DNA of 35,685 nucleotides. Origin: Minisyncoccota bacterium (lineage in GTDB: Bacteria > Patescibacteriota > Minisyncoccia > Minisyncoccales > PWPS01). How positions within the stretch are numbered: position 1 is the stretch's first letter; each line of letters starts with the position of its first letter. This document shows positions 4,143 through 35,211 of the stretch, piece after piece. Below the pieces are notes generated by a model, which saw only the letters and a list, made by a program, of their open reading frames with translations, did no database searches and was not told where the DNA came from. Location of the stretch: contig JAIPIL010000003.1 of NCBI GenBank assembly GCA_021734685.1, positions 1 to 35,685 of the forward strand. The letters run 5' to 3'. The position numbers and the translations under genes were made by a program.

Positions 4143-5537
4143 ATGGAGAAAAAAACTTTAGAAGAAGTAGTATCATTTTGTAAAAGAAGAGGTTTCATTT
4201 TTCAATCATCCGACATATATGGAGGATTTGCTGCTATCTATGACTATGGTCATTACGGAACCCTTTTGAAAAATAACATCCGTGATGCTTGGTGGAAAAG
4301 CATGGTTCAAGAAAGAGATGATGTTTATGCTCTTGATAGTGCTATTTTTATGCACCCTAAAACATGGGAGGCATCTGGACACTTGGCTGGATTTGATGAT
4401 CCCCAAGTTGACTGTAAAAAATGTAAACAAAGAATGAGAGCTGACCATATTCTTGAAGAATTTGGAATAGAGGCCGATAAAGCTCCGATGGAGTTCATAA
4501 ACGAAAAGATAGATGAACTAAAAAAAGAAGGAAAAGTTAAGTGTGTGAACTGTGGATCAACTGATCTAACTGAAGCAAAAAGATTTTCTTTAATGGTAAA
4601 GTCAAACATCGGTTCCCCAGTAGATGTCCTTTCCGAAGAGAATGTTGTTTATCTTCGCCCAGAAACTTGTGGAGGAATATACTTAGAGTATAAAAATATG
4701 ATGAACTCTGTTCACCCAAAACTTCCTTTCGGGATTGCTCAAATTGGAAAAGCTTTCCGCAACGAGATCGTTGCAAGACAGTTTATCTTTAGAACCAGAG
4801 AGTTTGAACAGATGGAGATGCAGTACTTCCTTCACCCTGACCAGATGAAAGAAAAATACGACTTCTGGCACGAGCTTCGTTGGAGTTGGTATCTAGAGTA
4901 TGGAATTCCAGAAGAAAAAATGAACTGGCACAAACACGATGTGATGGCTCATTACGCAACAGAAGCCTATGACATAGAGTTCAACTTTGATTCTCTTGGT
5001 GGGTTTAAAGAGGTAGAAGGAATTCATGCTAGAGGAGATTGGGATCTCTCACAACACTCTAAACACTCTGGAGTTGATCTAAGCTACACTGATGATCAAA
5101 CAAAAGAGAAGTTTATTCCACACATTATGGAAACCTCTGTTGGATTAAACCGTCTTGTTTTAATGTTTATTGATAACGGATATACAAAAGAAAATGTTGA
5201 TGGAGAGGAAAGATTGGTGTTGAAAATAGACAAAAGATTATCTCCAATAAAGGTTGCCATCTTCCCACTTATGAAGAATAAGCCAGAGATAATGGAGCAA
5301 GCAAAAAAAATCCACGAATCTCTTAAGAGAAAGTGGATGTGTGAATTTGATACCAGCGGAAGTATCGGAAAAAGATACCGAAGACAAGATGAGATCGGAA
5401 CTCCTTACTGTGTTACTGTTGACTTTGACTCCTTGTCAGATAAGTCAGTAACTGTAAGAGATAGAGACACGATGAAACAAGAGAGAGTTAAGATAGAAGA
5501 TCTTGAAAGTTATCTTTCTGAGAAACTGTCCCTATAA
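4143..5537 (+). CDS. glyS: Glycyl-tRNA synthetase, single-chain alpha2 type
   Basis: A class II synthetase (464 residues) that attaches glycine to tRNA-Gly. The N terminus contains the RRGFIFQSSDIYGG and YDYGHYGTLLKNNI segments of motif 1. Motif 2 is the FRNEIVARQFIFRTREFEQ region, and motif 3 ends in GLNRLVLMFIDNGY. Cys91, Cys94, Cys134 and Cys137 look like a zinc knuckle in the insertion. The C-terminal anticodon-binding domain begins with SPIKVAIFPLMKNK. Its length matches the homodimeric form, not the alpha2beta2 GlyQ/GlyS form. It is expressed from its own T-box leader. It converges on valS: the two stop codons are adjacent at 5532-5537, with no room for a terminator. Confidence 0.97.
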   Translation: MEKKTLEEVVSFCKRRGFIFQSSDIYGGFAAIYDYGHYGTLLKNNIRDAWWKSMVQERDDVYALDSAIFMHPKTWEASGHLAGFDDPQVDCKKCKQRMRADHILEEFGIEADKAPMEFINEKIDELKKEGKVKCVNCGSTDLTEAKRFSLMVKSNIGSPVDVLSEENVVYLRPETCGGIYLEYKNMMNSVHPKLPFGIAQIGKAFRNEIVARQFIFRTREFEQMEMQYFLHPDQMKEKYDFWHELRWSWYLEYGIPEEKMNWHKHDVMAHYATEAYDIEFNFDSLGGFKEVEGIHARGDWDLSQHSKHSGVDLSYTDDQTKEKFIPHIMETSVGLNRLVLMFIDNGYTKENVDGEERLVLKIDKRLSPIKVAIFPLMKNKPEIMEQAKKIHESLKRKWMCEFDTSGSIGKRYRRQDEIGTPYCVTVDFDSLSDKSVTVRDRDTMKQERVKIEDLESYLSEKLSL

Positions 5538-17922: not shown

Positions 17923-18369
17923 TTATTTATTCTTCTCTTGTTTTGAAATAAAACTTGAAATTTCTTTTTTAAATAATTCTAAATCTTTTAAATTTTCACT
18001 AAGAACTTTAAAAATGATTTTCCTGTCTATTTCTCCATATTCATGAACTAGTAAATTTCTCAAACCTATCATTCTGGTTATTTTTTGAGATAAATCTTCC
18101 GAAATTACTTTTTTTCCGAAAAGAATTGAGATGGCGCCATAATTATCTTCAGGTCTTTTCAAGTTAAGATCAATTATTATTAAATGAGAGGTATCAATAA
18201 TTGTTTGAATTGAAAGTTGAAGATATCTTTCAGTGTTTCCAAATAAGTGAAAATCAGACAAAAACTTTTCTTCATCTTCTATCTCTTGACGAAGTTGATA
18301 AAGATAACCTAAATACTCTTGAAAATTATCTAATTTATTTAAAATTTTCTGATAAGTTAAAGATGTCAT
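17923..18369 (-). CDS. hepT: HepT-like HEPN-domain toxin
   Basis: A 148-residue HEPN-domain protein of the HepT (DUF86) family. The RNase signature R-X4-H-X-Y is intact as RNLLVHEY (Arg104, His109, Tyr111). In studied HepT proteins Arg and His cleave RNA, and the tyrosine is AMPylated by the partner MntA to silence the toxin. The gene starts one base after mntA ends, so production of the two is coupled with the antitoxin first. The rest is a helical bundle with no other domain. Function as an RNase toxin is inferred from the motif and partner. Confidence 0.9.
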   Translation of the reverse strand: MTSLTYQKILNKLDNFQEYLGYLYQLRQEIEDEEKFLSDFHLFGNTERYLQLSIQTIIDTSHLIIIDLNLKRPEDNYGAISILFGKKVISEDLSQKITRMIGLRNLLVHEYGEIDRKIIFKVLSENLKDLELFKKEISSFISKQEKNK

Positions 18370-18370
18370 A

Positions 18371-18778
18371 CTAATAGTTTAAAACTCTTTGATTATATTT
18401 TTCTAATACTGGTTTAAAGTCAAAATAATCATTAAGAGTCTTTAATTCAAAATCAACTCTTTTGTCTTGAGATCTTTCAAAAATTATTTTCCCTTCTTTT
18501 AAAACCACATACTTCAAAAAAGATGAAGCCGTGTTTAAGACAACTATATCCGTGTCTTTCTTGAGAAGTTTTGAAATCTCGCCAATTAATTCTAATCTTT
18601 TTTCAAAAAAATCATCAACTTGATGTTTATCAAAAAACAATCCTATATCTATGTCGCTTTTTGAAATGCTCGTTCCTGTTGCCTGAGAACCGAATAAATA
18701 GCAAAACAAAACCCCTTCTTCCTGTTGAAGAAATCCTTTAAGTTCCTTAATCATATTTTCTAAATCTTGTTTTTCCAT
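18371..18778 (-). CDS. mntA: MntA-like nucleotidyltransferase antitoxin
   Basis: A 135-residue minimal nucleotidyltransferase with the hallmark GS-X10-DXD: Gly30-Ser31, then Asp42 and Asp44 (YLFGSQATGT...SDIDIGLFF). In type VII HepT/MntA systems this enzyme adds AMP to the HepT tyrosine and so neutralises it. The active-site residues needed for transfer are all present, as is the later DIVVLN strand carrying the third acidic residue. Directly upstream of hepT with its own promoter. Kanamycin-nucleotidyltransferase-like roles are less likely given the partner. Confidence 0.9.
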   Translation of the reverse strand: MEKQDLENMIKELKGFLQQEEGVLFCYLFGSQATGTSISKSDIDIGLFFDKHQVDDFFEKRLELIGEISKLLKKDTDIVVLNTASSFLKYVVLKEGKIIFERSQDKRVDFELKTLNDYFDFKPVLEKYNQRVLNY

Positions 18779-18875: not shown

Positions 18876-20189
18876 TTAGAGTGTTGGGTTAACTACTCTT
18901 CCCATAAAAAGGATGTTTCCGCTTTTTTCTTGGATGATGAAGATGAACGGGTGGTCAGCTTTGAACTGTTTTTTTTCTTCGGGCATCGCAGATTCCATCA
19001 TCACAACTCCTGTTGCTGCTGCTGCTTCTGTTCCTTTTTCGTCAACTGTGATGTATGCGCTGTGAACAACCTTTCCAATAAAAAGAGACTTGTCACCGTT
19101 CATTCCTGAGAAGTCGGCACCGCCACTAAAAGAGCGAGTCATTCCAAGAGCTTGCAAATAATTTTTTAACTGATAATCAGATTCAAGTTCAAACTTTGGA
19201 AGATAAACGGCAACCTCTTGTTTGTATGCTTTAGTTGCAACTGTTTTTATTTTATCAACGGTAATGGTGTTTTCAACGGCAGATAAATCATTTTCCCTAG
19301 GAAGAACGACCATCATTGATACTTCCTCTCCTTTGTAAGGCATCTCTAAAACTTGGATCAGTTCATCCTCATAATATCGGTACTCTCCATCGGTCTTCTG
19401 CATCATCTCAACTTGAACTGTTTCATCACTATCTACATAAAAATCACTCTCTGTTGTATTTTCTTCATCAAACTCGTCTTCCCAGTCCCCCTTGAAGTAT
19501 ATTGCGTTAGTAATTACCAAGCGAGTTAAGTCTGAAAAAGAGTTTTCTGGAAAGAGTTCGTCAATTATATCGTTTGTTTTTTCCGCAACCCAACTGTTAA
19601 TAATCTCTCTTGCTTTCTCTGGATCTTTTCCAAAATCAATGTTTCTAGCTACTCCCCCGTAAAATCTTTCTGTTGCTTCGGTGAAAGTAGGAAGAAGGTT
19701 GTAGTCCTCTTGAACCCACAAGGCGTTTGCTGTTTTCATCTCGTAGTTATCGTTATCTGCATTAAGACGATTGTAGATACTTGCAACCGCAGGTCTGCGA
19801 ACACTATCTCCTTCCGGAAATCCAAAAACAGAAACTATCTCTTCTGCAGTTTCTTCTCTTGCTCCTTCGTAAACTATTGCAAGTGCGGTAGAGATGCTGT
19901 ATGGGGATATAAAGACATTTTCTTTTTCTTCTTTAATTATTTCTTTATAGATCTTTAAAGCAAACTCGTTATTTGCATCTTCTACCGCTTTAACTCCTTC
20001 TGGAGTTACTCCTTCGTCATCGGCAGTAAAAGTAGTTTCACTTTCTCCTCCTCCTAAAGAAAAGATATAAGAAAGAAATGTTTTGTTTTTTATCTCTTCT
20101 TCTGTGTATCCAGCAATGAGGATAAGCGAGACTCCGATGAAGAGAATAAAAAGAGACAAGATTGATAATAATAAAAACTTTTTAACCAT
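18876..20189 (-). CDS. Serpin with N-terminal membrane anchor
   Basis: A 437-residue serine protease inhibitor. Residues 4-27 form one hydrophobic helix (FLLLSILSLFILFIGVSLIL) after two lysines: an uncleaved signal anchor or signal peptide. A linker then leads to the serpin fold: NVFISPYSISTALAIVYEGA, ITNAIYFKGDWEDEF, and the C-terminal ADHPFIFII and GNILFMGRVVNP. The reactive loop has an inhibitory-type hinge (EKGTEAAAATG, 385-395), suggesting it can insert and trap proteases. Counting 15 residues from Gly386 puts P1-P1' at Ser400-Ala401, with Met and Glu close by. The probable target is an elastase- or subtilisin-like enzyme; this is inference. It likely faces outward. Confidence 0.95.
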   Translation of the reverse strand: MVKKFLLLSILSLFILFIGVSLILIAGYTEEEIKNKTFLSYIFSLGGGESETTFTADDEGVTPEGVKAVEDANNEFALKIYKEIIKEEKENVFISPYSISTALAIVYEGAREETAEEIVSVFGFPEGDSVRRPAVASIYNRLNADNDNYEMKTANALWVQEDYNLLPTFTEATERFYGGVARNIDFGKDPEKAREIINSWVAEKTNDIIDELFPENSFSDLTRLVITNAIYFKGDWEDEFDEENTTESDFYVDSDETVQVEMMQKTDGEYRYYEDELIQVLEMPYKGEEVSMMVVLPRENDLSAVENTITVDKIKTVATKAYKQEVAVYLPKFELESDYQLKNYLQALGMTRSFSGGADFSGMNGDKSLFIGKVVHSAYITVDEKGTEAAAATGVVMMESAMPEEKKQFKADHPFIFIIQEKSGNILFMGRVVNPTL

Positions 20190-20889: not shown

Positions 20890-23800
20890 ATGTCCTTCAC
20901 TCACCTACATGTTCATACCGAATACAGTTTACTTGATGGTCTTACAAAGCTAGACGATCTTTTAGATTATGTTAAGGAAAACGGAATGGATGCCGTCGCA
21001 ATCACTGATCACGGTGTTCTTTACGGTGCAATAGAGTTTTACAAGAAAGCAAAAAAAGCTGGCGTTAAGCCAATTATCGGGTGCGAAGTGTATGTCGCCT
21101 TTGATGGAATGCACAACAAAAGGCCAAACATTGACAACAAATCTAATCACCTTGTTCTTCTAGCAAAAAATATAAAGGGCTATCAAAACTTGGTGCGATT
21201 AGTGAGCAAAGCCCATCTTGAAGGATTTTATTACAAACCAAGAATAGATAATCAACTTTTAGAAGAACACACTGAGGGATTAATCTGCCTCTCTGCTTGT
21301 CTTAAAGGAAAAATCCCTCAACTCGTCCTTTCTGGGAAGTATGATGAGGCAAAAAAACTTGCTCTTCACTATAAAAATATATTTGAAAAAGATAGCTTCT
21401 ATCTTGAAATCCAAAATCATCCAAACACTCCTGATCAAGAAAAAGCAAACAAAGAACTGGTAAGAATCTCAAAAGAAACCGGAATTCCTCTTGTTGCAAC
21501 TTGCGACTCACACTATCTAAGACCAGAAGATGCGGAAACACAAGATATATTAATGTCTATCGGGACTGGCTCTGATATAAATAATCCTGACCGAATGTCA
21601 ATCATTCATGATGATTTTTCAATGCCTGCTCCTGAAAAAATGAAAGAGTTGTTTAAAAATGTTCCTGAAGCAGTTGAAAATACAGAAAAAATTAAAGATC
21701 TTTGCAATCTAGAAATTGAGTTAGGGAAAAGAATACTCCCCTACTTTCCGCTTGAAGAAGGAAAAACTGCAAACGATATGCTTCAAGAGTTGTGTGAAAA
21801 AGGAATTCCGGAAAAGTATCGCCCCGAACAAGAAGAAGAGGTTAAAAAAAGATTAAAAGAAGAGATGGATGTCATTGTTGGCGCTGACCTCTCTTCTTAT
21901 TTTCTAGTTGTCCAAGATTTTACTGTCTGGTCAAAAAAGAACAACATCGTAGTTGGTCCCGGAAGAGGTTCTGCTGGTGGATCAATTGTTGCTTATCTTA
22001 TCGGAATAACAAACATTGATCCTCTCCATTACGGATTAATCTTTGAGAGATTTTTAAATCCCGGAAGAGCAAAGGTTTCTCTTCCTGATATTGATCTTGA
22101 TTTTGCTGATAAAAGAAGAGATGAGGTTATCTCATATATTGGAGAAAGATATGGAAAAGACCGTGTAGCACAGATTATAACTTTTGGAACGATGGCTGCT
22201 AAGGCTGCAATTCGTGATGTTGGAAGAACGCTTGGTTATCCTTATGCCTACTGTGACAAGGTTGCAAAGATGATTCCCCTTGGAGCAAATCTAAAAGAAA
22301 CAAAGGAGAAAATTGCTGACTTTAGACAGCTATATGACACTGATGAGAAGGCTCGCCGAATGATAGATCAAGCTGAAAAGTTAGAGGGAGTTGTCCGCCA
22401 TGCATCAACACATGCCTGTGGACTGGTTATCTCCAATAATCCCTTAACAGACATCGCTCCTCTTCAACACCCAACCAACAACGGAGAAGGAGTTCTTACT
22501 CAGTATGCGATGGAGTCCGTTGAAGATCTAGGACTTTTAAAGATGGATCTGTTGGGCTTAAAAAACCTAACCATTCTTGAAAACACCCTGAAAAGAATAT
22601 ACGCAATCAGTAAAAAAGATATTGATTTAGAAAAAATCCCCCTTGACGATAAAGAAGCCTTCAAAATCCTAAAACAAGGAAACACAGTAGGTGTGTTTCA
22701 ACTGGAGTGTTTGTCTGGAGACACTATTATCTCCAATACAACAATTGAAAAACTATACAAGAGAAAAGACAAAAAAAGAATCACTTCTTTATATCTAGAT
22801 GAAGGAAAGATCCATCTTAACGAGATATTAGATGTTGTAAGTAGCGGAAAAAGAAAAGTTTACACTTTGATCACAGAAAATAACCGATATATAAAAGCCA
22901 CAAAAGGTCATCGCTTCCTAACTAAAGACGGCTGGAAAGAGTTAAAAGATATAAGGGTTGGAGAAACTGTTCTAATGAGAGAAAAAGCAAAACACCTTGT
23001 TTACAGAAGATGTGAATTGTGTAAAAAGCAAATTTACGGAAATCCAAGAAAGGAGGCAAAATTTTGTTACCGATGTTCAGCGCTTACTTATAAAAATCCT
23101 AGTAAACCAATCTCAAGAGAAAAAATAAAAAAAGCAAGAGTAGAATTTTACGCAAACGGTGGAAAACCGTGGAATACAGGGTTAACAAAAGAAAATAGTG
23201 ATATATGGAGGGAGACATCAAAAAAAATTGCCACTGCTCTTACTGGGAAAACACTTGAAGATCGTTACGGAAAGGAAAAAGCAGACAAGATAAAGAAAAG
23301 AATGTCAGAAAGATTTAGTGGGTCAAAAAATCCGATGTTTGGAAAAACCCCTCCTCATGGAAAAAGAGGGTTCCGTAAAGATTTAGGTCACTTTGTTCGT
23401 TCTTCGTGGGAAGCTGATTTTGCAAGAATATTGAAGCTATACAATTTAGATTATCAGTATGAACCAAAAACATTTCCTTTGACAAGAGAGAATGGAGAGA
23501 TTATCAACTACACCCCTGATTTTTATGTTCCATCTAAAAACACTTTTTATGAAATAAAGGGATTTTTACGACACCCCGATAAAGAAAAAATTGAGTTATT
23601 TGAAAAACAATACCCACAATATAACTTTGTTTTAGTCAACAATACTCTTTTTGCCGAACTTGCTTTAAAATATAAAACTCTAATTAATTGGGAGTGTCCA
23701 CAAATTCCTAAAAAAGGATTTAGTTTTGTTAAAATTAAAGAAATTAAATACTCTGGAGTAGAAGAAACCTATGATATTAAGATGAAATCCCCTGCGAACA

Positions 23801-25179
23801 ACTTCCAAGCAAGTAGTTTTATCGTTCATAATAGCGGAGGTATGCAACGCTACTTAAAGCAGTTGAAGCCTTCAAATATTGAAGAGATTATTGCTATGAT
23901 CTCTCTTTATCGTCCTGGTCCGATGAAGTTTCTTCCTGACTACATTGCAAGAAAAAACAAAAAGAAAGAGATTGTTTACCTCCACCCTTCTTTGGAGCCG
24001 ATTCTGAAGCCAACTTACGGAGTGCTTGTTTTCCAAGAACAAGTAATGCAGATCGCAACCGACTTGGCTGGGTTTAGTAAAGAAGAAGCTGATACCTTAA
24101 GAAAAGCGATCGGTAAAAAGATAAAAGAACTGATGGATAAGAAGAAAGGACAGTTTATAGAAGGAATGGGGCAAAACAAAATAAATGAAAAAATTGCAAG
24201 AGAGATATGGGAGTGGATAGAACCGTTTGCGCAGTACTCTTTCAACAAAAGTCACGCAGCAGCTTACGCTCAGATCGCTTATCAAACCGCGTATCTGAAG
24301 GCTCACTACCCTCGTGAATTTATGTCTGCTCTTTTAACTGCGGATCAAGGAGATACTGAAAGAGTTGGTTTTCTTATTAACGGCTGTAAAAAAATGAAGA
24401 TAGAAGTTCTTCCTCCTGATATCAACGAAAGTTTTATGGGGTTCAGTGTTGTTCCTGATAAAAACGAAATCCGTTTCGGATTATCAGCAATTAAAAATGT
24501 TGGAGACAAGGTAGTTGAAGTTATCGTAAAAGAAAGAAAAGAAAACGGAGAATTTAAATCACTTGATGATTTCCTCTCCCGAATCCAACCACCAACTCTA
24601 AACAAAAAGTCACTGGAAAGTTTAGTGAAGTCAGGCTCTTTTGATCGTTTCAAACCACGAGAAGACCTTATCTATAACCTTGAACGATTATTAGAATACA
24701 GCAGAGAAAAGGGAAAGTGTAAAGATAATGGACAGTCAGGATTATTTGATACGGATCTTACAGAGTGTGAGCTTAGTTTAGAGAAAGCCCCTGAAGTTAA
24801 CCATCAAGAAAAACTAAAGTGGGAGAAAGAGCTACTTGGTCTTTTTGTTACTGGACATCCGTTAGAATATCTGAAAGAAAAAACAAGAAACGGCGGAATT
24901 ACAATTAAAGAAGCAAAAAAACAGATAACCGACACTCGAGTAAGAGTTGGAGTTGTTATCTCGGCAATTAAAAAAATAACCACAAAAAAAGGTGATCCGA
25001 TGCTCTTTATTACTGTTGAAGATCTTGAAGAGACGATGGAAGTGATCGTTTTTCCAAAAACCCTTGAAAGCAACGGAACAATCTTTGAAGAAGGAAGATC
25101 AGTCTTCATATCAGGAAAGATAAACAACCGCGACGAAGTACCAAAAATAATATGCGAAACCGCAATGCCGATAGAATAA
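20890..25179 (+). CDS. dnaE: DNA polymerase III alpha subunit, interrupted by an intein
   Basis: A 1429-residue precursor; removal of the intein (607-981) would leave a 1054-residue replicative polymerase. The PHP domain opens with HLHVHTEYSLLDG. The palm has GPGRGSAGGS and LPDIDLDFADKRRDE, with catalytic Asp402 and Asp404 (equivalent to E. coli Asp401/Asp403); the third acidic residue is in LLKMDLLGLKNL. After the intein, RYLKQLKPSNIEE, SLYRPGPM and FNKSHAAAYAQIAYQTA follow. A helix-hairpin-helix region and OB-fold domain (VGVVISAIKKITTKKGDPM) close the protein. It is divergent from rnhB. No Shine-Dalgarno is evident before the ATG. Confidence 0.97.
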   Translation: MSFTHLHVHTEYSLLDGLTKLDDLLDYVKENGMDAVAITDHGVLYGAIEFYKKAKKAGVKPIIGCEVYVAFDGMHNKRPNIDNKSNHLVLLAKNIKGYQNLVRLVSKAHLEGFYYKPRIDNQLLEEHTEGLICLSACLKGKIPQLVLSGKYDEAKKLALHYKNIFEKDSFYLEIQNHPNTPDQEKANKELVRISKETGIPLVATCDSHYLRPEDAETQDILMSIGTGSDINNPDRMSIIHDDFSMPAPEKMKELFKNVPEAVENTEKIKDLCNLEIELGKRILPYFPLEEGKTANDMLQELCEKGIPEKYRPEQEEEVKKRLKEEMDVIVGADLSSYFLVVQDFTVWSKKNNIVVGPGRGSAGGSIVAYLIGITNIDPLHYGLIFERFLNPGRAKVSLPDIDLDFADKRRDEVISYIGERYGKDRVAQIITFGTMAAKAAIRDVGRTLGYPYAYCDKVAKMIPLGANLKETKEKIADFRQLYDTDEKARRMIDQAEKLEGVVRHASTHACGLVISNNPLTDIAPLQHPTNNGEGVLTQYAMESVEDLGLLKMDLLGLKNLTILENTLKRIYAISKKDIDLEKIPLDDKEAFKILKQGNTVGVFQLECLSGDTIISNTTIEKLYKRKDKKRITSLYLDEGKIHLNEILDVVSSGKRKVYTLITENNRYIKATKGHRFLTKDGWKELKDIRVGETVLMREKAKHLVYRRCELCKKQIYGNPRKEAKFCYRCSALTYKNPSKPISREKIKKARVEFYANGGKPWNTGLTKENSDIWRETSKKIATALTGKTLEDRYGKEKADKIKKRMSERFSGSKNPMFGKTPPHGKRGFRKDLGHFVRSSWEADFARILKLYNLDYQYEPKTFPLTRENGEIINYTPDFYVPSKNTFYEIKGFLRHPDKEKIELFEKQYPQYNFVLVNNTLFAELALKYKTLINWECPQIPKKGFSFVKIKEIKYSGVEETYDIKMKSPANNFQASSFIVHNSGGMQRYLKQLKPSNIEEIIAMISLYRPGPMKFLPDYIARKNKKKEIVYLHPSLEPILKPTYGVLVFQEQVMQIATDLAGFSKEEADTLRKAIGKKIKELMDKKKGQFIEGMGQNKINEKIAREIWEWIEPFAQYSFNKSHAAAYAQIAYQTAYLKAHYPREFMSALLTADQGDTERVGFLINGCKKMKIEVLPPDINESFMGFSVVPDKNEIRFGLSAIKNVGDKVVEVIVKERKENGEFKSLDDFLSRIQPPTLNKKSLESLVKSGSFDRFKPREDLIYNLERLLEYSREKGKCKDNGQSGLFDTDLTECELSLEKAPEVNHQEKLKWEKELLGLFVTGHPLEYLKEKTRNGGITIKEAKKQITDTRVRVGVVISAIKKITTKKGDPMLFITVEDLEETMEVIVFPKTLESNGTIFEEGRSVFISGKINNRDEVPKIICETAMPIE
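22708..23832 (+). mobile_element. DnaE intein with NUMOD3-like repeats and PD-(D/E)XK homing nuclease
   Basis: A 375-residue in-frame protein intron between extein sequences GVFQLE and SGGMQRYLK. Splicing residues are present: Cys1 in CLSGDT, the TKGH block B histidine, and a terminal VHN followed by Ser as +1 nucleophile (Ser982). In the middle is a likely zinc finger (CELCKKQ...CYRC), then NUMOD3-like DNA-binding motifs (GGKPWNTGLTKE, SGSKNPMFGK). A VSR/PD-(D/E)XK-type nuclease follows: SSWEADFARIL, YTPDF with Asp877, and YEIKG with Glu888 and Lys890. All catalytic positions look intact, so it could still be mobile. The site is a highly conserved part of DnaE, typical for inteins. Confidence 0.93.
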
Positions 25180-28791: not shown

Positions 28792-30021
28792 ATGAAATAT
28801 CACATAATAACATACGGCTGTCAGATGAACGAAAGTGACAGCGAAAGAGTATCATCATTTTTCCAAGAAAACGGACTCTTGGAGGGAGATGAAGAAGAAG
28901 CTGATGTTATCATCTTTACTGCTTGCAGTATTCGTCAGTCAGCGATAGACAGAGTTATCGCAAGAGGAAAAGAGATAAAGAAAAAAAAGGAAAAGCCAGT
29001 AACAATTCTTACAGGATGTGTTCTTGAAGAAGATAAAAAAAGTTTATCTTCTATTTTTGATTACATTTTAGATATTAACGACCTCCCTCACTGGCCACTT
29101 CCCTTTCTTAGCAAAAGCAGTAAACAATACTTTGAAATCGTTCCAAAAAGAAACGGTATTAGTGCCTACATATCAATTATGACTGGTTGTGACAACTTCT
29201 GCACATACTGTGTTGTTCCTTATACTAGAGGAAGAGTATCTTGTCGTCCAACAAAAGAAGTTTTAAAAGAAGTTGAAGAGGCCGTAGAAGAAGGACACAA
29301 AGAGATCTGGTTTCTCGGACAAAATGTAAACGCCTATAAAGAAGAACTAACTTTTGGAGAACTACTAAAAGAAACAAACAAAATAAAAGGTGATTTCTGG
29401 ATAAGGTTTACCAGCTCTCATCCAAACGATTTTACCGATGATATGATTGAGGCGATGAAAAACTGCAAAAAAGTAACCAACTACCTAAACCTTCCTGTTC
29501 AATCTGGAAACGACGAGATTTTGAAAAAAATGAACAGACCATACAACATTTCAGAGTATAAAAAAATTATTACAAAAGTAAAAGAAGAAGTCCCCGATGT
29601 GTTTATATCAACCGACATAATTGTTGGTTTTCCCGGAGAAACAGAAAAACACTTCCGAAGTACCCTAAATCTCTTTAACGAAATCTTGTTTGATATGATA
29701 TACATCGGAAAATACTCTCCCCGAAAACAAACTGTTGCCTATAAGATGAAAGAAACAGTTTCTCCAAGCGAAAAAAAGAGAAGAGAAAAGGTTTTAAATG
29801 AACTACTAAAAGAAAGTAATCTTGAAAAAAACAAGCAATATATTGGAAAAAAATTAAAAGTGCTGGTTACTAACTCTAATAGTAAAGGATTACTGGTTGG
29901 AAAAACAAAAAACTACAAAAGCGTTAGTTTCAAAGGAAGTAAAAAACTGATCGGCAGTTTTGTTGATGTTAAAATAAATGACTACTCTCTATGGGGATTA
30001 AAAGGAACAAAGATAAGTTAA
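28792..30021 (+). CDS. miaB: tRNA-2-methylthio-N6-dimethylallyladenosine synthase
   Basis: A 409-residue radical SAM methylthiotransferase that adds the methylthio group to i6A37 of tRNAs. The N-terminal domain has the three cluster cysteines (YGCQMNESDSE, FTACSIRQSA, LTGCVLEE). The radical SAM CxxxCxxC is in MTGCDNFCTYCVVPYTRGR. The TRAM RNA-binding domain is at the C terminus (from about residue 345). It is slightly short for the family (about 430-470) but lacks no key motif. It overlaps miaA by 31 bases, matching their consecutive steps on the same adenosine. Confidence 0.96.
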   Translation: MKYHIITYGCQMNESDSERVSSFFQENGLLEGDEEEADVIIFTACSIRQSAIDRVIARGKEIKKKKEKPVTILTGCVLEEDKKSLSSIFDYILDINDLPHWPLPFLSKSSKQYFEIVPKRNGISAYISIMTGCDNFCTYCVVPYTRGRVSCRPTKEVLKEVEEAVEEGHKEIWFLGQNVNAYKEELTFGELLKETNKIKGDFWIRFTSSHPNDFTDDMIEAMKNCKKVTNYLNLPVQSGNDEILKKMNRPYNISEYKKIITKVKEEVPDVFISTDIIVGFPGETEKHFRSTLNLFNEILFDMIYIGKYSPRKQTVAYKMKETVSPSEKKRREKVLNELLKESNLEKNKQYIGKKLKVLVTNSNSKGLLVGKTKNYKSVSFKGSKKLIGSFVDVKINDYSLWGLKGTKIS

Positions 30022-30896
30022 AAGTTGTTGTTGTCTTAGGACCAACCTCTTCTGGAAAAAGTGATCTCGCCGTTGAGATCTCTAAAAAGTTTAACGGCGA
30101 AGTTATATCAGCTGATTCAAGGCAAGTTTACAAAAAGATGGATATCGGTTCTGGAAAAGTTACCGAAGAAGAGATGCAAGGAGTCCCCCACTATCTTCTT
30201 GATGTTGTTGATCCTAAAAAAAGATTTAGTGTTTCTGATTATAAAAAACTTGCTGAAAAAGCAGTAAAGCAGATTGCTGAAAAAGGAAAACTACCTATCG
30301 TTTGCGGAGGAACTGCTTTCTATATAAAAGCACTGATGGACGGGGTTGTTTTTCCTAAGGTTTCCCCTGATTGGACACTAAGAAGAAGATTGGAGAAAAA
30401 AACTACAGAAGAGCTTTATCAGGAGCTTGAAAAAAAAGATCCGCAAAGAGCGGAAAATATTGACTCTAAAAACAAAGTAAGGTTGATAAGAGCGTTAGAG
30501 ATAATATCAAAAACAAAAAAGCCAGTTCCTAAGGTAAAAGAGGAACCGCCATACAACTCACTATATATAGGAATAGATGTTGATCAAGAAGAATTAGAAG
30601 AGAGAATAGAAAAAAGACTGGACCGCCGAATTGAAGAAGGAATGATTGAAGAAGTTCGTAGCTTAAAAGAAGATGGCGTTTCGTGGGAACGGCTTGAAGA
30701 GTTAGGATTAGAGTATCGCTGGATCGCTCGCTACCTCCAAGGGAAGATTGATTACGAAGAAGCAAAAGAGAGGCTGTCCACTGATATAAAAAAGTTTAGC
30801 AAAAGACAAAGAACATGGTGGCGAGGAGACGAAAGAATCCACTGGATAAAAAACCTAAAAGAAGCAGAAGATCTAGTCAACAGCTTTATAAAATAA
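29991..30896 (+). CDS. miaA: tRNA dimethylallyltransferase
   Basis: A 301-residue P-loop enzyme transferring the dimethylallyl group from DMAPP to A37 of tRNAs, giving i6A, the substrate of MiaB. The P-loop is VLGPTSSGKSDLAVE, followed by ISADSRQVYKKMDIG, the catalytic-loop GGTAFYIKALMDG and RLIRALEI. The C-terminal FSKRQRTWWRGDERIHW region is standard. The ATG lies inside miaB. DMAPP could come from Idi, encoded at 7694-8194. A hairpin terminator follows right after the stop. Confidence 0.96.
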   Translation: MGIKRNKDKLKVVVVLGPTSSGKSDLAVEISKKFNGEVISADSRQVYKKMDIGSGKVTEEEMQGVPHYLLDVVDPKKRFSVSDYKKLAEKAVKQIAEKGKLPIVCGGTAFYIKALMDGVVFPKVSPDWTLRRRLEKKTTEELYQELEKKDPQRAENIDSKNKVRLIRALEIISKTKKPVPKVKEEPPYNSLYIGIDVDQEELEERIEKRLDRRIEEGMIEEVRSLKEDGVSWERLEELGLEYRWIARYLQGKIDYEEAKERLSTDIKKFSKRQRTWWRGDERIHWIKNLKEAEDLVNSFIK

Positions 30897-30901
30897 AAAC
30901 A

Positions 30902-30926
30902 GGGGGTTGTGTAGAACAACCCCCTT
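30902..30926. terminator. Bidirectional terminator between miaA and the small operon
   Basis: A 9-bp GC-rich stem (30902-30910 with 30916-30924) with a 5-base loop. On the minus strand it is followed by TGTTTTTATTTT, ending the small two-gene operon; on the plus strand a weaker T tract follows, ending thrS-miaA. Confidence 0.8.
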
Positions 30927-30947: not shown

Positions 30948-31151
30948 TCATATCGCCAGCACACTTTCCTCTGGCTCTAACGAGACACTCGAGACCCTTC
31001 TTTTATTGCTGTTGTTGTAAATGGCCGAAATTTCGGCCAAAGGAATGCTCTTCACGACCTCATCATCTCCCTGAGGCAAGAAAAAAAGCATTCCCCTCTC
31101 TATCCAATGTTCCTCGGTGGCACCATCAGGGCGCCGGATGGTAATTTTCAT
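30948..31151 (-). CDS. Small protein of unknown function (second gene of the unknown operon)
   Basis: A 67-residue protein beginning MKITIRRPDGATEEHWIERG. I choose the ATG at 31151 because AAAGGAGG lies 5 bases before it; two GTG codons just upstream are less likely. It seems to be a soluble beta-rich domain: a short N-terminal sheet, an acidic turn (QGDDEVVKSIPLAEI) and a Ser/Glu-rich end. No known family is recognised. It overlaps the upstream membrane-protein gene by 26 bases, so they are coupled. G+C is higher than in neighbouring genes. The strong ribosome site and the operon context favour a real gene. Confidence 0.65.
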   Translation of the reverse strand: MKITIRRPDGATEEHWIERGMLFFLPQGDDEVVKSIPLAEISAIYNNSNKRRVSSVSLEPEESVLAI

Positions 31152-31503
31152 CACCACCTCCTTTCTTAAAAGTTACCTTCATAGAGTCGCCGTCAACTAC
31201 GGCGATCATCTTATGCCTATTGCACAAGGTTTCGATTTCCTTCAGAGAAATATCATGCAGAGAAATCTCTTTTTTTCTGAGAAGAAAAATGACTTCTTCA
31301 ACCATCTCCTGAACTTCCTCCTTTTTCCAAAGAAGGATGAAGGGAGAGAAAAGAAAAATCCATTTCGGGGTATAGGCAATCAGCCCCGGATGAGAAGCGC
31401 TTTGATCAAAGACATATAGCATTCCACCAACAATCCAGGCACCAAAAGTAAAAGTAGAGAGAACACCTACAACGAACAAGCTTGTGAAAAGAACTGATTT
31501 CAT
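31126..31503 (-). CDS. Small membrane protein of unknown function
   Basis: A 125-residue protein when started at the ATG at 31503 (MKSVLFTSLFVVGVLSTFTF), which has AAAGGAG 7 bases upstream; the longer frame runs into the promoter. Two hydrophobic segments are visible at about residues 3-31 and 45-60, joined by FDQSASHPGLIAYTP, followed by a charged helix (WKKEEVQEMVEEVIFLL) and a basic-to-neutral C terminus with KKGGGDEN. The first segment could also be a signal anchor. No family is recognised. It is first in a two-gene operon with the strongest promoter in the window, suggesting high expression. Confidence 0.75.
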   Translation of the reverse strand: MKSVLFTSLFVVGVLSTFTFGAWIVGGMLYVFDQSASHPGLIAYTPKWIFLFSPFILLWKKEEVQEMVEEVIFLLRKKEISLHDISLKEIETLCNRHKMIAVVDGDSMKVTFKKGGGDENYHPAP

Positions 31504-31537
31504 ACTATTCTCCTTTTTTCGTTTCTGTTTATCGTAT

Positions 31538-31566
31538 ATTATATAAATAATAATGATATTTGTCAA
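31538..31566 (-). promoter_or_regulatory. Perfect consensus promoter of the small unknown operon
   Basis: TTGACA (31566-31561), a 17-base spacer and TATAAT (31543-31538): all twelve bases match the sigma-70 consensus at ideal spacing. It is the only such promoter I found in the window. It lies 35 bases before the start codon. Confidence 0.85.
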
Positions 31567-31585: not shown

Positions 31586-31626
31586 CAAAAAAGCTGTGCG
31601 GGGGTGGAGTCCGCACAGCTTTTTTT
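31586..31626. terminator. Bidirectional terminator after gatB
   Basis: Arms AGCTGTGCGG (31592-31601) and CCGCACAGCT (31611-31620) are exact complements with a 9-base loop. T runs occur on both strands. On the minus strand it ends deoC-gatB, just upstream of the small operon's promoter. Confidence 0.9.
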
Positions 31627-31638
31627 CTTTTAAGCTCT

Positions 31639-31659
31639 TCCCAAGGTCCGACCTTGGGA
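31639..31659. terminator. Perfect hairpin directly after gatB
   Basis: A 9-bp stem (31639-31647 with 31651-31659) around CCG starts 4 bases after the gatB stop, with no T run downstream; a second, true terminator follows. It may protect the 3' end of the message. The AAGGTCCGACCTT core recalls the hairpin at 17868. Confidence 0.6.
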
Positions 31660-31663
31660 GTTT

Positions 31664-33115
31664 TTAGTTTAGTTTTTGTTTTAGGATTTTGTTTGCTTGA
31701 TCGGGAGATGCTTTTCCTTTTGTTTTTGCCATTACTTTTCCTATTAAGAACTGTAAAACTTCAATTTTTCCTTCTTTGTATTCTTTAATTGCTGGCTGAC
31801 TTTCAGTTATAACCTCATCAACTACTTTTTCTATCTCCCCTTCGTCGCTAATCTCAGAAAGTCCCTTTTCTTGAATCACAACTGAAGCATCTTTTCCGCT
31901 TTCAAACATTTCTTTTATCACTATTTTTGCTATCTTGCTTGATATTTTTTTGTTATAAACAAGAACTACAAAGTCAGCAAACTTTAACGGATTTATTTTT
32001 GTTTCATTAACTAATCCTCCGTTCAACATTCCAAGAACTTCACTAAAAAGATAATTTTTAGCAATCTTTCCAACTTCTTTTTTTGCTTCATTCTTGTTTA
32101 TCTTTTTCAAGGCTAGCTGAACTGTTTCTTCAAAGTAATCTGCCACTTCTCGGTTATCAATAAAGACCTCTATTTCGTTCTCTTTATCTACCCCATACTC
32201 CTCCTTAAAACGATTTCTTTTCTCTTTTGGTAGTTCTACTCCAATCTCTATTCCATCTTTCTTAAAAGGGCTTTCATTTAAAAACAAAGGGGGAAGATCT
32301 GGCTCTGGAAAGTAACGGTAATCATGAGCATTTTCTTTTGCTCTTTGAGAAAATGTTTCTTCTCTCTGATCGTGCCACCCTCTTGTTTCTTGGACAACCA
32401 ACTCCCCTCTCTCAAGGACTTCTCTTTGTCTTTTTATCTCATACTCTGTTGCGTTATAAACAGTGCGGAAAGAGTTTAGATTTTTAATCTCTACCTTCGT
32501 TCCAAACTCTCCGTTCTCTTTGCAAAGAGAGATGTTAACTTCAACCCTCATCTGCCCCTGATTCATATTTGCTTCTGAAACTCCAAGATAACGGAGAATA
32601 AGTTGTAGTTCTTTTGCAAATCCACGAGCTTCTTCCGCGCTTCTTATGTCTGGCTCTGTCACAAGCTCCATCAAAGGAACTCCTGAGCGGTTAAAATCAA
32701 TAAGTGATTCTTTTTCTTTTTCGTTGTGAACAATTCTTCCTGTATCTTCTTCAAGGTGAATACGATTAATTCTTATCTTTCTATCCCCCACCTCTAAATA
32801 ACCATCATAACAAAATGGTTTTTCATCTTGTGATATCTGATATCCTTTTGGGAGGTCTGGGTAAAAGTAATTTTTACGATCAAAGCGGGATTCATCTCTT
32901 AAGCTACAATTCAGTGCCTTCCCTGCTTTCAAAACACTAATAACTGCTTCTTTGTTTATTACCGGAAATGTTCCCGGATGCCCCAAACAAACAGGACAGA
33001 TATAGGTATTAGGACTTCCTGCTTCAGCATTATTAGGACAAGAACAAAACATCTTTGATTTTGTTTTCAACTGAGCGTGAATCTCTAATCCTATTACAGG
33101 CGTATATTTTTTCAT
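31664..33115 (-). CDS. gatB: Aspartyl/glutamyl-tRNA amidotransferase subunit B
   Basis: The B subunit of GatCAB, which converts Glu-tRNA-Gln (and Asp-tRNA-Asn) to the correct amide form. I start at the ATG at 33115 (MKKYTPVIGLEIHAQLKTKSK, 483 residues), since the earlier in-frame region lies within deoC. The kinase-like domain contains CSCPNNAEAG and CPVCLGHPG (zinc cysteines), the HLEEDTGRIVH and DFNRSGVPLMELVTEPD segments. The C-terminal tail ends with YKEGKIEVLQFLIGKVM and ASPDQANKILKQKL, the YqeY-like tRNA-binding part. GatA and GatC are not in this window. It starts 4 bases after deoC. Confidence 0.97.
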   Translation of the reverse strand: MKKYTPVIGLEIHAQLKTKSKMFCSCPNNAEAGSPNTYICPVCLGHPGTFPVINKEAVISVLKAGKALNCSLRDESRFDRKNYFYPDLPKGYQISQDEKPFCYDGYLEVGDRKIRINRIHLEEDTGRIVHNEKEKESLIDFNRSGVPLMELVTEPDIRSAEEARGFAKELQLILRYLGVSEANMNQGQMRVEVNISLCKENGEFGTKVEIKNLNSFRTVYNATEYEIKRQREVLERGELVVQETRGWHDQREETFSQRAKENAHDYRYFPEPDLPPLFLNESPFKKDGIEIGVELPKEKRNRFKEEYGVDKENEIEVFIDNREVADYFEETVQLALKKINKNEAKKEVGKIAKNYLFSEVLGMLNGGLVNETKINPLKFADFVVLVYNKKISSKIAKIVIKEMFESGKDASVVIQEKGLSEISDEGEIEKVVDEVITESQPAIKEYKEGKIEVLQFLIGKVMAKTKGKASPDQANKILKQKLN

Positions 33116-33870: not shown

Positions 33871-35211
33871 TTATATTTTTCTTTCCGGAAAAGGATTTTT
33901 TTCTACTGCTTTCATATCTCGGCCACAGTATCTCCCTCCTTCTCCACACTTTCCAGTTAAAACGCAGTTTGGCGCCATTGCTCTTGCAAGAGGATGATCT
34001 TGAAGTTGCTCCTGTAAAGAGCGAGCCACTTCATATATCTCTTCTTGGGCACACCAGCATAGTCTTTTTGAAAGCTCGTGAACCACTGCGTTGTATGACC
34101 CTTTCTTGTGATACTTGACCATCGCTCCGTAGGGGGCAAGAACAAGCATCAAGCTTTCTGGAAGTTCATCTCGGAGAGAGAGCCAGCTGTTAAAAACATC
34201 TTCTGCCTCGCTCTCTAATCCCAAGCCATCAAGAACTGGTGGAAAGTAGAACTTTCCGTTAAAAGAGGGCCTACTTCTTCTCACTGTCCGGTGTCTCTGG
34301 TCTTGTCCCATTGTTGCAATGGAAATTTCTATCTCTGTTTCAATATCCAGAACATTGTTATCCATTAAGTGAGGAGAAAAGTGAGCAAGATCAACGGGAT
34401 GCATCTCTTCTGATTTTGGTAAGATGAAGTCTTCAACTCCTTCCTTGTTTATCAGTTTCGTTTTTGGTTTTTTTGCAATTCCGCTAAAACCATCGCACCA
34501 ACCAACAGCACTTATCAATTCGGCATGCTCTCTTCTTTGAAACGCAAACTCAAGCTCTGGCCACTTTTCCAAAACAATATCCACCATCTTTTGAGTAACA
34601 TCGATCATTCCCGGAGACCAAGCGGAGCGGTACATCCCTGCCAAAGCAGAAATATTAACCGTGTACTCTAACGCCGTTGGAAATACAACTGGGATAAACA
34701 TTCGTAACTGCTCTTGTGCAATCTTCGGAGCATTTTTCTCAATGTAAGAAGCTGAGGCGTTTGGTCTTTCTTCTTTGATCAACCGTTCAACTTCTTTCAC
34801 TGCTCTGTTAATGTTTGATTGGTAAACAGTTATCGCCTTCTGGATGTAGTTCAGAACAAGCTCCCTGTTTTTCACTTCCGGCCAGTAGTGCTTAATATAT
34901 CCTTCAATCATATCAAAATCAGGATTATTAAACATCTTTCCACAAAAACGACCCGAGCGTTGGCTGGTATTGTAGAAAGGGCTTGCCAGATGTAACCCAA
35001 ATGTAACATCACCAATCGCAATATCTTCTATCAAAAATGTGCAGTAGAAGTGTTGAAAAGTTGTGTGATGTCCTGTTCCCCAAAGGTTGTTTTCAATATC
35101 AATTGTTTTGCCCCACTCTGGAGCAGTGTCTTGATAGCAAACCTTTGCTGCATGGGAAATTGACTCTAATGGATTCTTTGTTGGCCAGTTTATTAAACTT
35201 GCTTTAATCAT
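33871..35211 (-). CDS. thyX: Tandem-domain flavin-dependent thymidylate synthase (ThyX)
   Basis: A 446-residue protein made of two ThyX-like halves, about twice the usual 220-250. The first half has GHHTTFQH (47-54), a motif region HLASPFYNTSQRSGRF (74-89) that keeps the N/S/R end but lacks RHR, and an LRMFIPVVFPTALEYTVN helix. The second half has DQRHRTVRRSRPSF with the RHR at 306-308 but a lost SxNExS end, then VLAPYG, a CAQEEIYEVA helix and a Cys-rich tail (NCVLTGKCGEGGRYCG). So the ThyX motif appears shared between halves. It makes dTMP from dUMP using FAD and methylene-folate. AAAGGAGG precedes the ATG; tmk lies 46 bases upstream. Confidence 0.85.
   Translation of the reverse strand: MIKASLINWPTKNPLESISHAAKVCYQDTAPEWGKTIDIENNLWGTGHHTTFQHFYCTFLIEDIAIGDVTFGLHLASPFYNTSQRSGRFCGKMFNNPDFDMIEGYIKHYWPEVKNRELVLNYIQKAITVYQSNINRAVKEVERLIKEERPNASASYIEKNAPKIAQEQLRMFIPVVFPTALEYTVNISALAGMYRSAWSPGMIDVTQKMVDIVLEKWPELEFAFQRREHAELISAVGWCDGFSGIAKKPKTKLINKEGVEDFILPKSEEMHPVDLAHFSPHLMDNNVLDIETEIEISIATMGQDQRHRTVRRSRPSFNGKFYFPPVLDGLGLESEAEDVFNSWLSLRDELPESLMLVLAPYGAMVKYHKKGSYNAVVHELSKRLCWCAQEEIYEVARSLQEQLQDHPLARAMAPNCVLTGKCGEGGRYCGRDMKAVEKNPFPERKI

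Follow-up and report, generated by a model that had tools for sequence, protein, structure and literature searches.

The genomes of Patescibacteria are very small, and many of the accessory genes they carry have no explanation. In a 35,685-nucleotide stretch of the genome of a Minisyncoccota bacterium (contig JAIPIL010000003.1 of assembly GCA_021734685.1; hereafter the window), two small overlapping open reading frames (ORFs) lie between miaA and gatB, core genes that converge on each other. This locus raises the question of whether the two frames are genes and, if so, what kind of system they encode. A sequence-only reading had proposed a highly expressed, self-contained unit coding for an unfamiliar membrane protein and an unfamiliar soluble protein, perhaps a surface or membrane-regulatory pair.

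Operon layout and control signals

The operon consists of two ORFs, both on the minus strand, that have 26 bases (31126-31151) in common. Gene 1 (31126-31503) encodes P0001, a 125-residue membrane protein with two transmembrane (TM) segments and a cytosolic-type tail, while gene 2 (30948-31151) encodes P0002, a 67-residue soluble ORFan. A sigma-70 promoter, TTGACA-N17-TATAAT, matching the consensus at 12/12 positions is located at 31538-31566 on the same strand, with its -10 element ending 34 nt ahead of the gene 1 start. Direct reading of the sequence places the Shine-Dalgarno site AGGAG before gene 1 (31510-31514, minus strand) and a second one, AAAGGAGG, before gene 2 within the 3' end of gene 1 (31157-31164, minus strand). 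The intrinsic terminator behind gene 2, AGGGGGTTGTTCTACACAACCCCCT GTTTTT, occupies 30901-30925 (minus strand), 22 bases from the gene 2 stop. On the other side, a strong hairpin with a 16-bp stem and T/A runs on both sides (31587-31625) lies between gatB and the operon promoter and is a terminator insulating the operon from gatB. A second terminator-like hairpin is found at the end of gatB (31638-31660). The GC content is 0.413 for gene 1 and 0.480 for gene 2 compared with 0.348 for the remaining window. The earlier description of a compact, self-contained unit with overlapping genes, strong Shine-Dalgarno sites, terminators on both sides and a G+C content above that of its neighbors is borne out by these features.

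The operon promoter represents the sole 12/12 site in a 6-kb scan and also in the whole window, confirming it as the best promoter there. Dinucleotide shuffles give an expectation of 0.06 such sites for the window, with a site present in 6 of 100 shuffles, and genome-wide there are 12 in 456 kb compared with 0 for a reversed control pattern. The proposed high expression is matched by strong expression signals, but high expression itself is a prediction from sequence. All Rfam matches around the operon fall far under the gathering scores, yielding no riboswitch or sRNA, and a search of the same surroundings for mobile-element marks, including flanking direct repeats, returned short chance-like repeats only.

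Another contig of this genome (C26) carries the same 28-base perfect promoter twice, at 4145-4172 and 4711-4738, with the copies separated by 566 bases. One precedes a small toxin-antitoxin-like ORF pair and the other a 229-aa membrane-anchored ORF, and together they look like a duplicated promoter. The window itself holds further unusual genes. Judging from its translation, the 1429-aa DNA polymerase III alpha subunit at 20890-25179 (plus strand) contains an apparent intein (CLSGDT after FQLE, ending in IVHNSGG) that embeds an endonuclease-like part. Adjoining ORFs for a 135-aa nucleotidyltransferase-like and a 148-aa HEPN-like protein (17923-18778, minus strand) have the appearance of an MNT-HEPN toxin-antitoxin pair. 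By inspection, a serpin-like protein of 437 aa carrying a membrane segment at its N-terminus (18876-20189, minus strand) is unexpected in a genome so reduced, and a 446-aa ThyX-like protein (33871-35211, minus strand) is about twice the usual length with an apparent two-domain form.

The two-TM hairpin family and its modular tail

Judged by codon usage (z = 4.6 versus shuffles) and by homologues with intact frames, gene 1 is a real gene. Its residues 1-60 (31324-31503, minus strand) form a two-TM hairpin according to alignments, hydropathy and a model helix spanning residues 2-35, the structure model itself having low confidence (mean pLDDT near 60). Searches for this hairpin were carried out genome-wide, blind to position and promoter. 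With the single P0001 sequence as query, three genomes out of 147 relatives were recovered (G018, G025 and G071; E 8e-7 to 6e-10), and a profile search of 247 genomes of the order added G228, G243 and G235 (E 6e-21 to 8e-9). One genome from another order of the class matches the profile at E 2.6e-4, rising to 88 bits once included (G291), and one from the wider phylum is a weaker member at E 4.7e-5 (G901). The hairpin family is consequently found in seven other lineages of Patescibacteria plus a weaker eighth. Proteins identical to those of G228 and G243 are carried by a Candidatus Staskawiczbacteria bacterium (L178) and by a further metagenome-assembled genome (L177), respectively. Three weak matches from the first pass (L006, L007 and L008, another membrane gene) were discarded as chance hydrophobic matches that the profile failed to recover.

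Alignments define a family core of about 75 residues comprising TM1, a loop, a P-x-W motif, TM2 and a basic tail. Residues L9, V12, G13, P46 and W48 are invariant across eight aligned members, and P0001 fits the pattern with L-x2-VG in TM1 and P-x-W ahead of TM2. By hydropathy the second TM segment is weak in some members. The combination of hydropathy and charge pattern predicts an inner-membrane hairpin with both ends in the cytoplasm. A surface role, one of the two functions proposed earlier, is not indicated, the hairpin having a cytosolic-type tail. Neither P0001 nor any other family member scores above cut-off in Pfam, NCBIfam, PHROGs or PADLOC, the family profile has zero matches among PDB chains, and no hairpin relatives were found in viral, phage or plasmid collections. 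The hairpin family is thus small, sparse, uncatalogued and new, in agreement with the suggestion that gene 1 belongs to no recognized family. The same reading held that a lack of homologues with conserved frames would count against the system; for gene 1, intact frames are present in other lineages.

Most hairpin genes stand alone, each followed at once by a terminator, and in most a terminator hairpin lies within about 100 bases past the stop. P0001 follows this stand-alone pattern with a 12/12 promoter before the gene and a terminator that comes after gene 2. The best promoter reaches 12/12 in this genome, G228, G243 and G071, 11/12 in G025, G235 and G901, and 10/12 in G291 and G018, the G018 site being 211 bases away. 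In equal windows of 90 or 120 bases, promoters of at least 11/12 precede 5/8 or 6/8 of the non-seed members, respectively, compared with 8/44 or 11/44 of the other ORFs found between miaA and gatB (p 0.017, 0.011) and 4/29 of the other genes in the window (p 0.012, 0.002). Because hairpin members exceed both groups, the strong promoter is a trait of the family and no quirk of this window.

Separate from the hairpin, gene 1 carries a small alpha-beta-beta 'DGD' mini-domain at residues 79-116 (31156-31269, minus strand), a tail for which P0001 is the sole carrier among hairpin members. At low confidence, the model shows a helix at residues 87-96 and two strands, 99-104 and 109-114, whose turn holds DGD. 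The tail matches a stand-alone 59-aa ORF of the same-genus genome G005 with a score greater than all 2000 shuffles. It also matches ORFs from the miaA/gatB gap of G015 (p 0.0005) and G197 (p 0.0065), and the DGD motif occurs within ORFs from this gap in G008, G014, G015 and G197. The relatives in G008, G015 and G197 were chosen by eye from these ORFs before any profile was built, an ascertainment bias, so that their clustering in the gap is no independent evidence. A profile search returned no further strong member besides G014, a near copy of G008.

The miaA/gatB slot

The operon sits in a slot whose walls are miaA (29991-30896, plus strand), assigned by translation and tblastn conservation, and gatB (31664-33115, minus strand; the listed ORF extends to 33169). 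In all 7 of 7 same-genus genomes and in two genomes of the same family (G010 and G013), gatB and miaA adjoin each other in convergent orientation, without the operon. To describe the slot more widely, we surveyed the region behind gatB in 80 genomes of the order (L097-L176). In 66 of the 80, miaA is convergent within range, with 20 gaps below 100 bp and 46 gaps of 190-2100 bp, lengths that are approximate as they were measured from the tblastn boundary; the other 14 have no measurable gap, some owing to contig ends. The 46 filled gaps contain mostly unrelated small genes that differ between families. By inspection, the cargo includes HAD-like, metallophosphatase-like, AbrB-like and transposase-like proteins, receivers and small ORFans. 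Few cargo clusters cross families, namely AbrB-like proteins (f2, f19), receivers (f4, f19), the hairpin (f1, f4, f33) and two or three others.

The hairpin occupies the slot in G000 (this genome), G018, G228 and G291, with the remaining members located elsewhere. Three of the eight non-seed members thus share one gap, which we estimate, as opposed to formally test, to be far above random placement. Across Patescibacteria the hairpin is patchy, and among the genomes searched gene 2 is confined to this one. The operon represents an accessory insertion missing from its same-genus relatives, and no core system of Patescibacteria. The history of the slot is compatible both with old inheritance followed by repeated loss and with exchange by way of flanking homology. 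Two hairpin members of different families (L004 and L177) both adjoin uvrA and uvrC, a position that may be another recurrent slot.

Gene 2, a proposed exchangeable partner and competing readings

Homology searches gave relatives for gene 1 and none for gene 2. No gene 2 homologue was detected in 147 relatives, 170 genomes of the class, viral contigs or phage collections, plasmid collections contain no relative of P0002, and Pfam, NCBIfam, PHROGs and PADLOC returned nothing above cut-off. P0002 is accordingly a soluble protein in no recognized family, as had been suggested, but the proposed two-protein pair does not extend beyond this genome. The P0002 model shows a beta-beta-beta-beta-alpha arrangement (mean pLDDT 61.5), and a fold search with it gave nothing at E <= 0.001. 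PH-like and LexA-like folds were dropped at E values of about 1 and a model pLDDT of 61, and a likeness, seen by eye, to the C-terminal region of the slot protein in G197 was unsupported when tested. Codon usage lends gene 2 weak support (z = 1.4 versus shuffles). In our judgement gene 2 is nonetheless probably a translated gene because AAAGGAGG is well spaced, the frame overlaps gene 1 and the terminator lies 22 bases past its stop.

Hairpins occur in three contexts: bare, with the DGD tail and P0002, or with an overlapping receiver gene. The last is observed in G018, where a second gene, sharing 4 bases with the hairpin gene, encodes a receiver (PF00072, 2e-17) that is 39% identical to a slot receiver of G196. 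The cytosolic partner may therefore be exchangeable, since a CheY-like receiver takes the gene 2 position in G018 and other members are bare hairpins. P0002 itself matches neither PF00072 nor any other family. The idea of a membrane-regulatory pair is partly retained: a membrane and a soluble protein are encoded, but the hairpin mostly stands alone and is only once accompanied by a CheY-like receiver.

We tentatively favor, at somewhat less than even confidence, the prediction that the operon is an accessory, strongly transcribed membrane dock or regulator with an exchangeable cytosolic partner. Strong constitutive transcription from the promoter at 31538-31566 would yield a bicistronic mRNA. 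Gene 1 would produce an inner-membrane hairpin with two TM segments, a short outside loop and both ends in the cytoplasm, leaving the DGD tail of P0001 in the cytosol. Gene 2, starting inside gene 1, would be translated off the same mRNA by translational coupling, supplying P0002 in matched amounts, and P0002 would most likely bind the P0001 tail. The hairpin would then serve as the membrane dock or regulator, with the cytosolic partner swappable. The docking role is drawn by analogy, no hairpin member having a characterized relative. MgrB is a 47-aa small regulatory membrane protein described as inhibiting the sensor kinase PhoQ (PMC8404706). The likeness is one of mode only, a tiny membrane protein acting on a larger partner, and differs in that P0001 adds a cytosolic mini-domain and the operon a second gene.

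Other readings were weighed against this one. Gene 1 alone could be functional, with the hairpin modulating a host membrane complex and gene 2 being a recent or non-functional ORFan. The single-gene organization of most hairpin members, with a terminator right behind, and the lack of homologues and low codon score of gene 2 suit this reading, which we hold to be rather unlikely given the perfect, correctly spaced AAAGGAGG, the way gene 2 fills the stretch from gene 1 to the terminator, and the second overlapping gene of G018, which is clearly coding. It is barely credible that the two frames are chance ORFs, or the product of an assembly artefact, in intergenic DNA. The operon is indeed missing from all same-genus genomes and its GC is unlike that of the flanks, but the gene 1 frame and motifs are kept across seven or more other lineages, where the genes have promoters of their own and three occupy the same slot, which for gene 1 already contradicts a chance origin.

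The patchy distribution and the accessory slot would also accommodate a defence effector or toxin-like two-TM unit kept at an accessory hotspot, gene 2 being its sensor or antidote. A sub-threshold match of one hairpin relative to the PADLOC '2TM effector' (E 0.041) points the same way, but PADLOC matches neither P0001 nor P0002, the partner gene is missing in most members, viral and phage homologues were not found, and consensus promoters of constitutive type are unlikely for an unopposed toxin, making this reading improbable. A small accessory subunit of a transporter is a further candidate. YhdT (DUF997, PF06196) is a small protein encoded beside PanF and, like P0001, a short membrane protein. 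The G243 hairpin aligns with DUF997 over residues 13-53 (E 0.0037), but this best score of 17.6 bits is below the curated gathering score of 26.3, and P0001 and the other members have no match. Hairpin genes neighbor miaA, gatB, uvrA, uvrC, ksgA and others, with no sodium:solute symporter such as panF and no recognized transporter gene beside any member, so that we consider a transporter role distinctly improbable.

Returning to the dock or regulator with an exchangeable partner, a broader and, in our view, unlikely extension would make the gatB/miaA gap an integrase-free exchange site of ultra-small bacteria. Short autonomous cassettes, each made up of promoter, gene and terminator, would be swapped between distant lineages by homologous recombination in the conserved flanking genes and would draw on a shared pool of modules (hairpin, DGD, CheY-like receiver, AbrB-like regulator), the hairpin and its changing partners forming a minimal modular membrane-signalling device. 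Most genomes of the order retain the convergent gatB/miaA junction with its widely differing cargo, which makes it a practical place to trace how genes are gained and lost. Its conserved walls let gain, loss and exchange of cargo be followed over hundreds of genomes, and a laboratory host allows the pairing between hairpin and partner to be tested.
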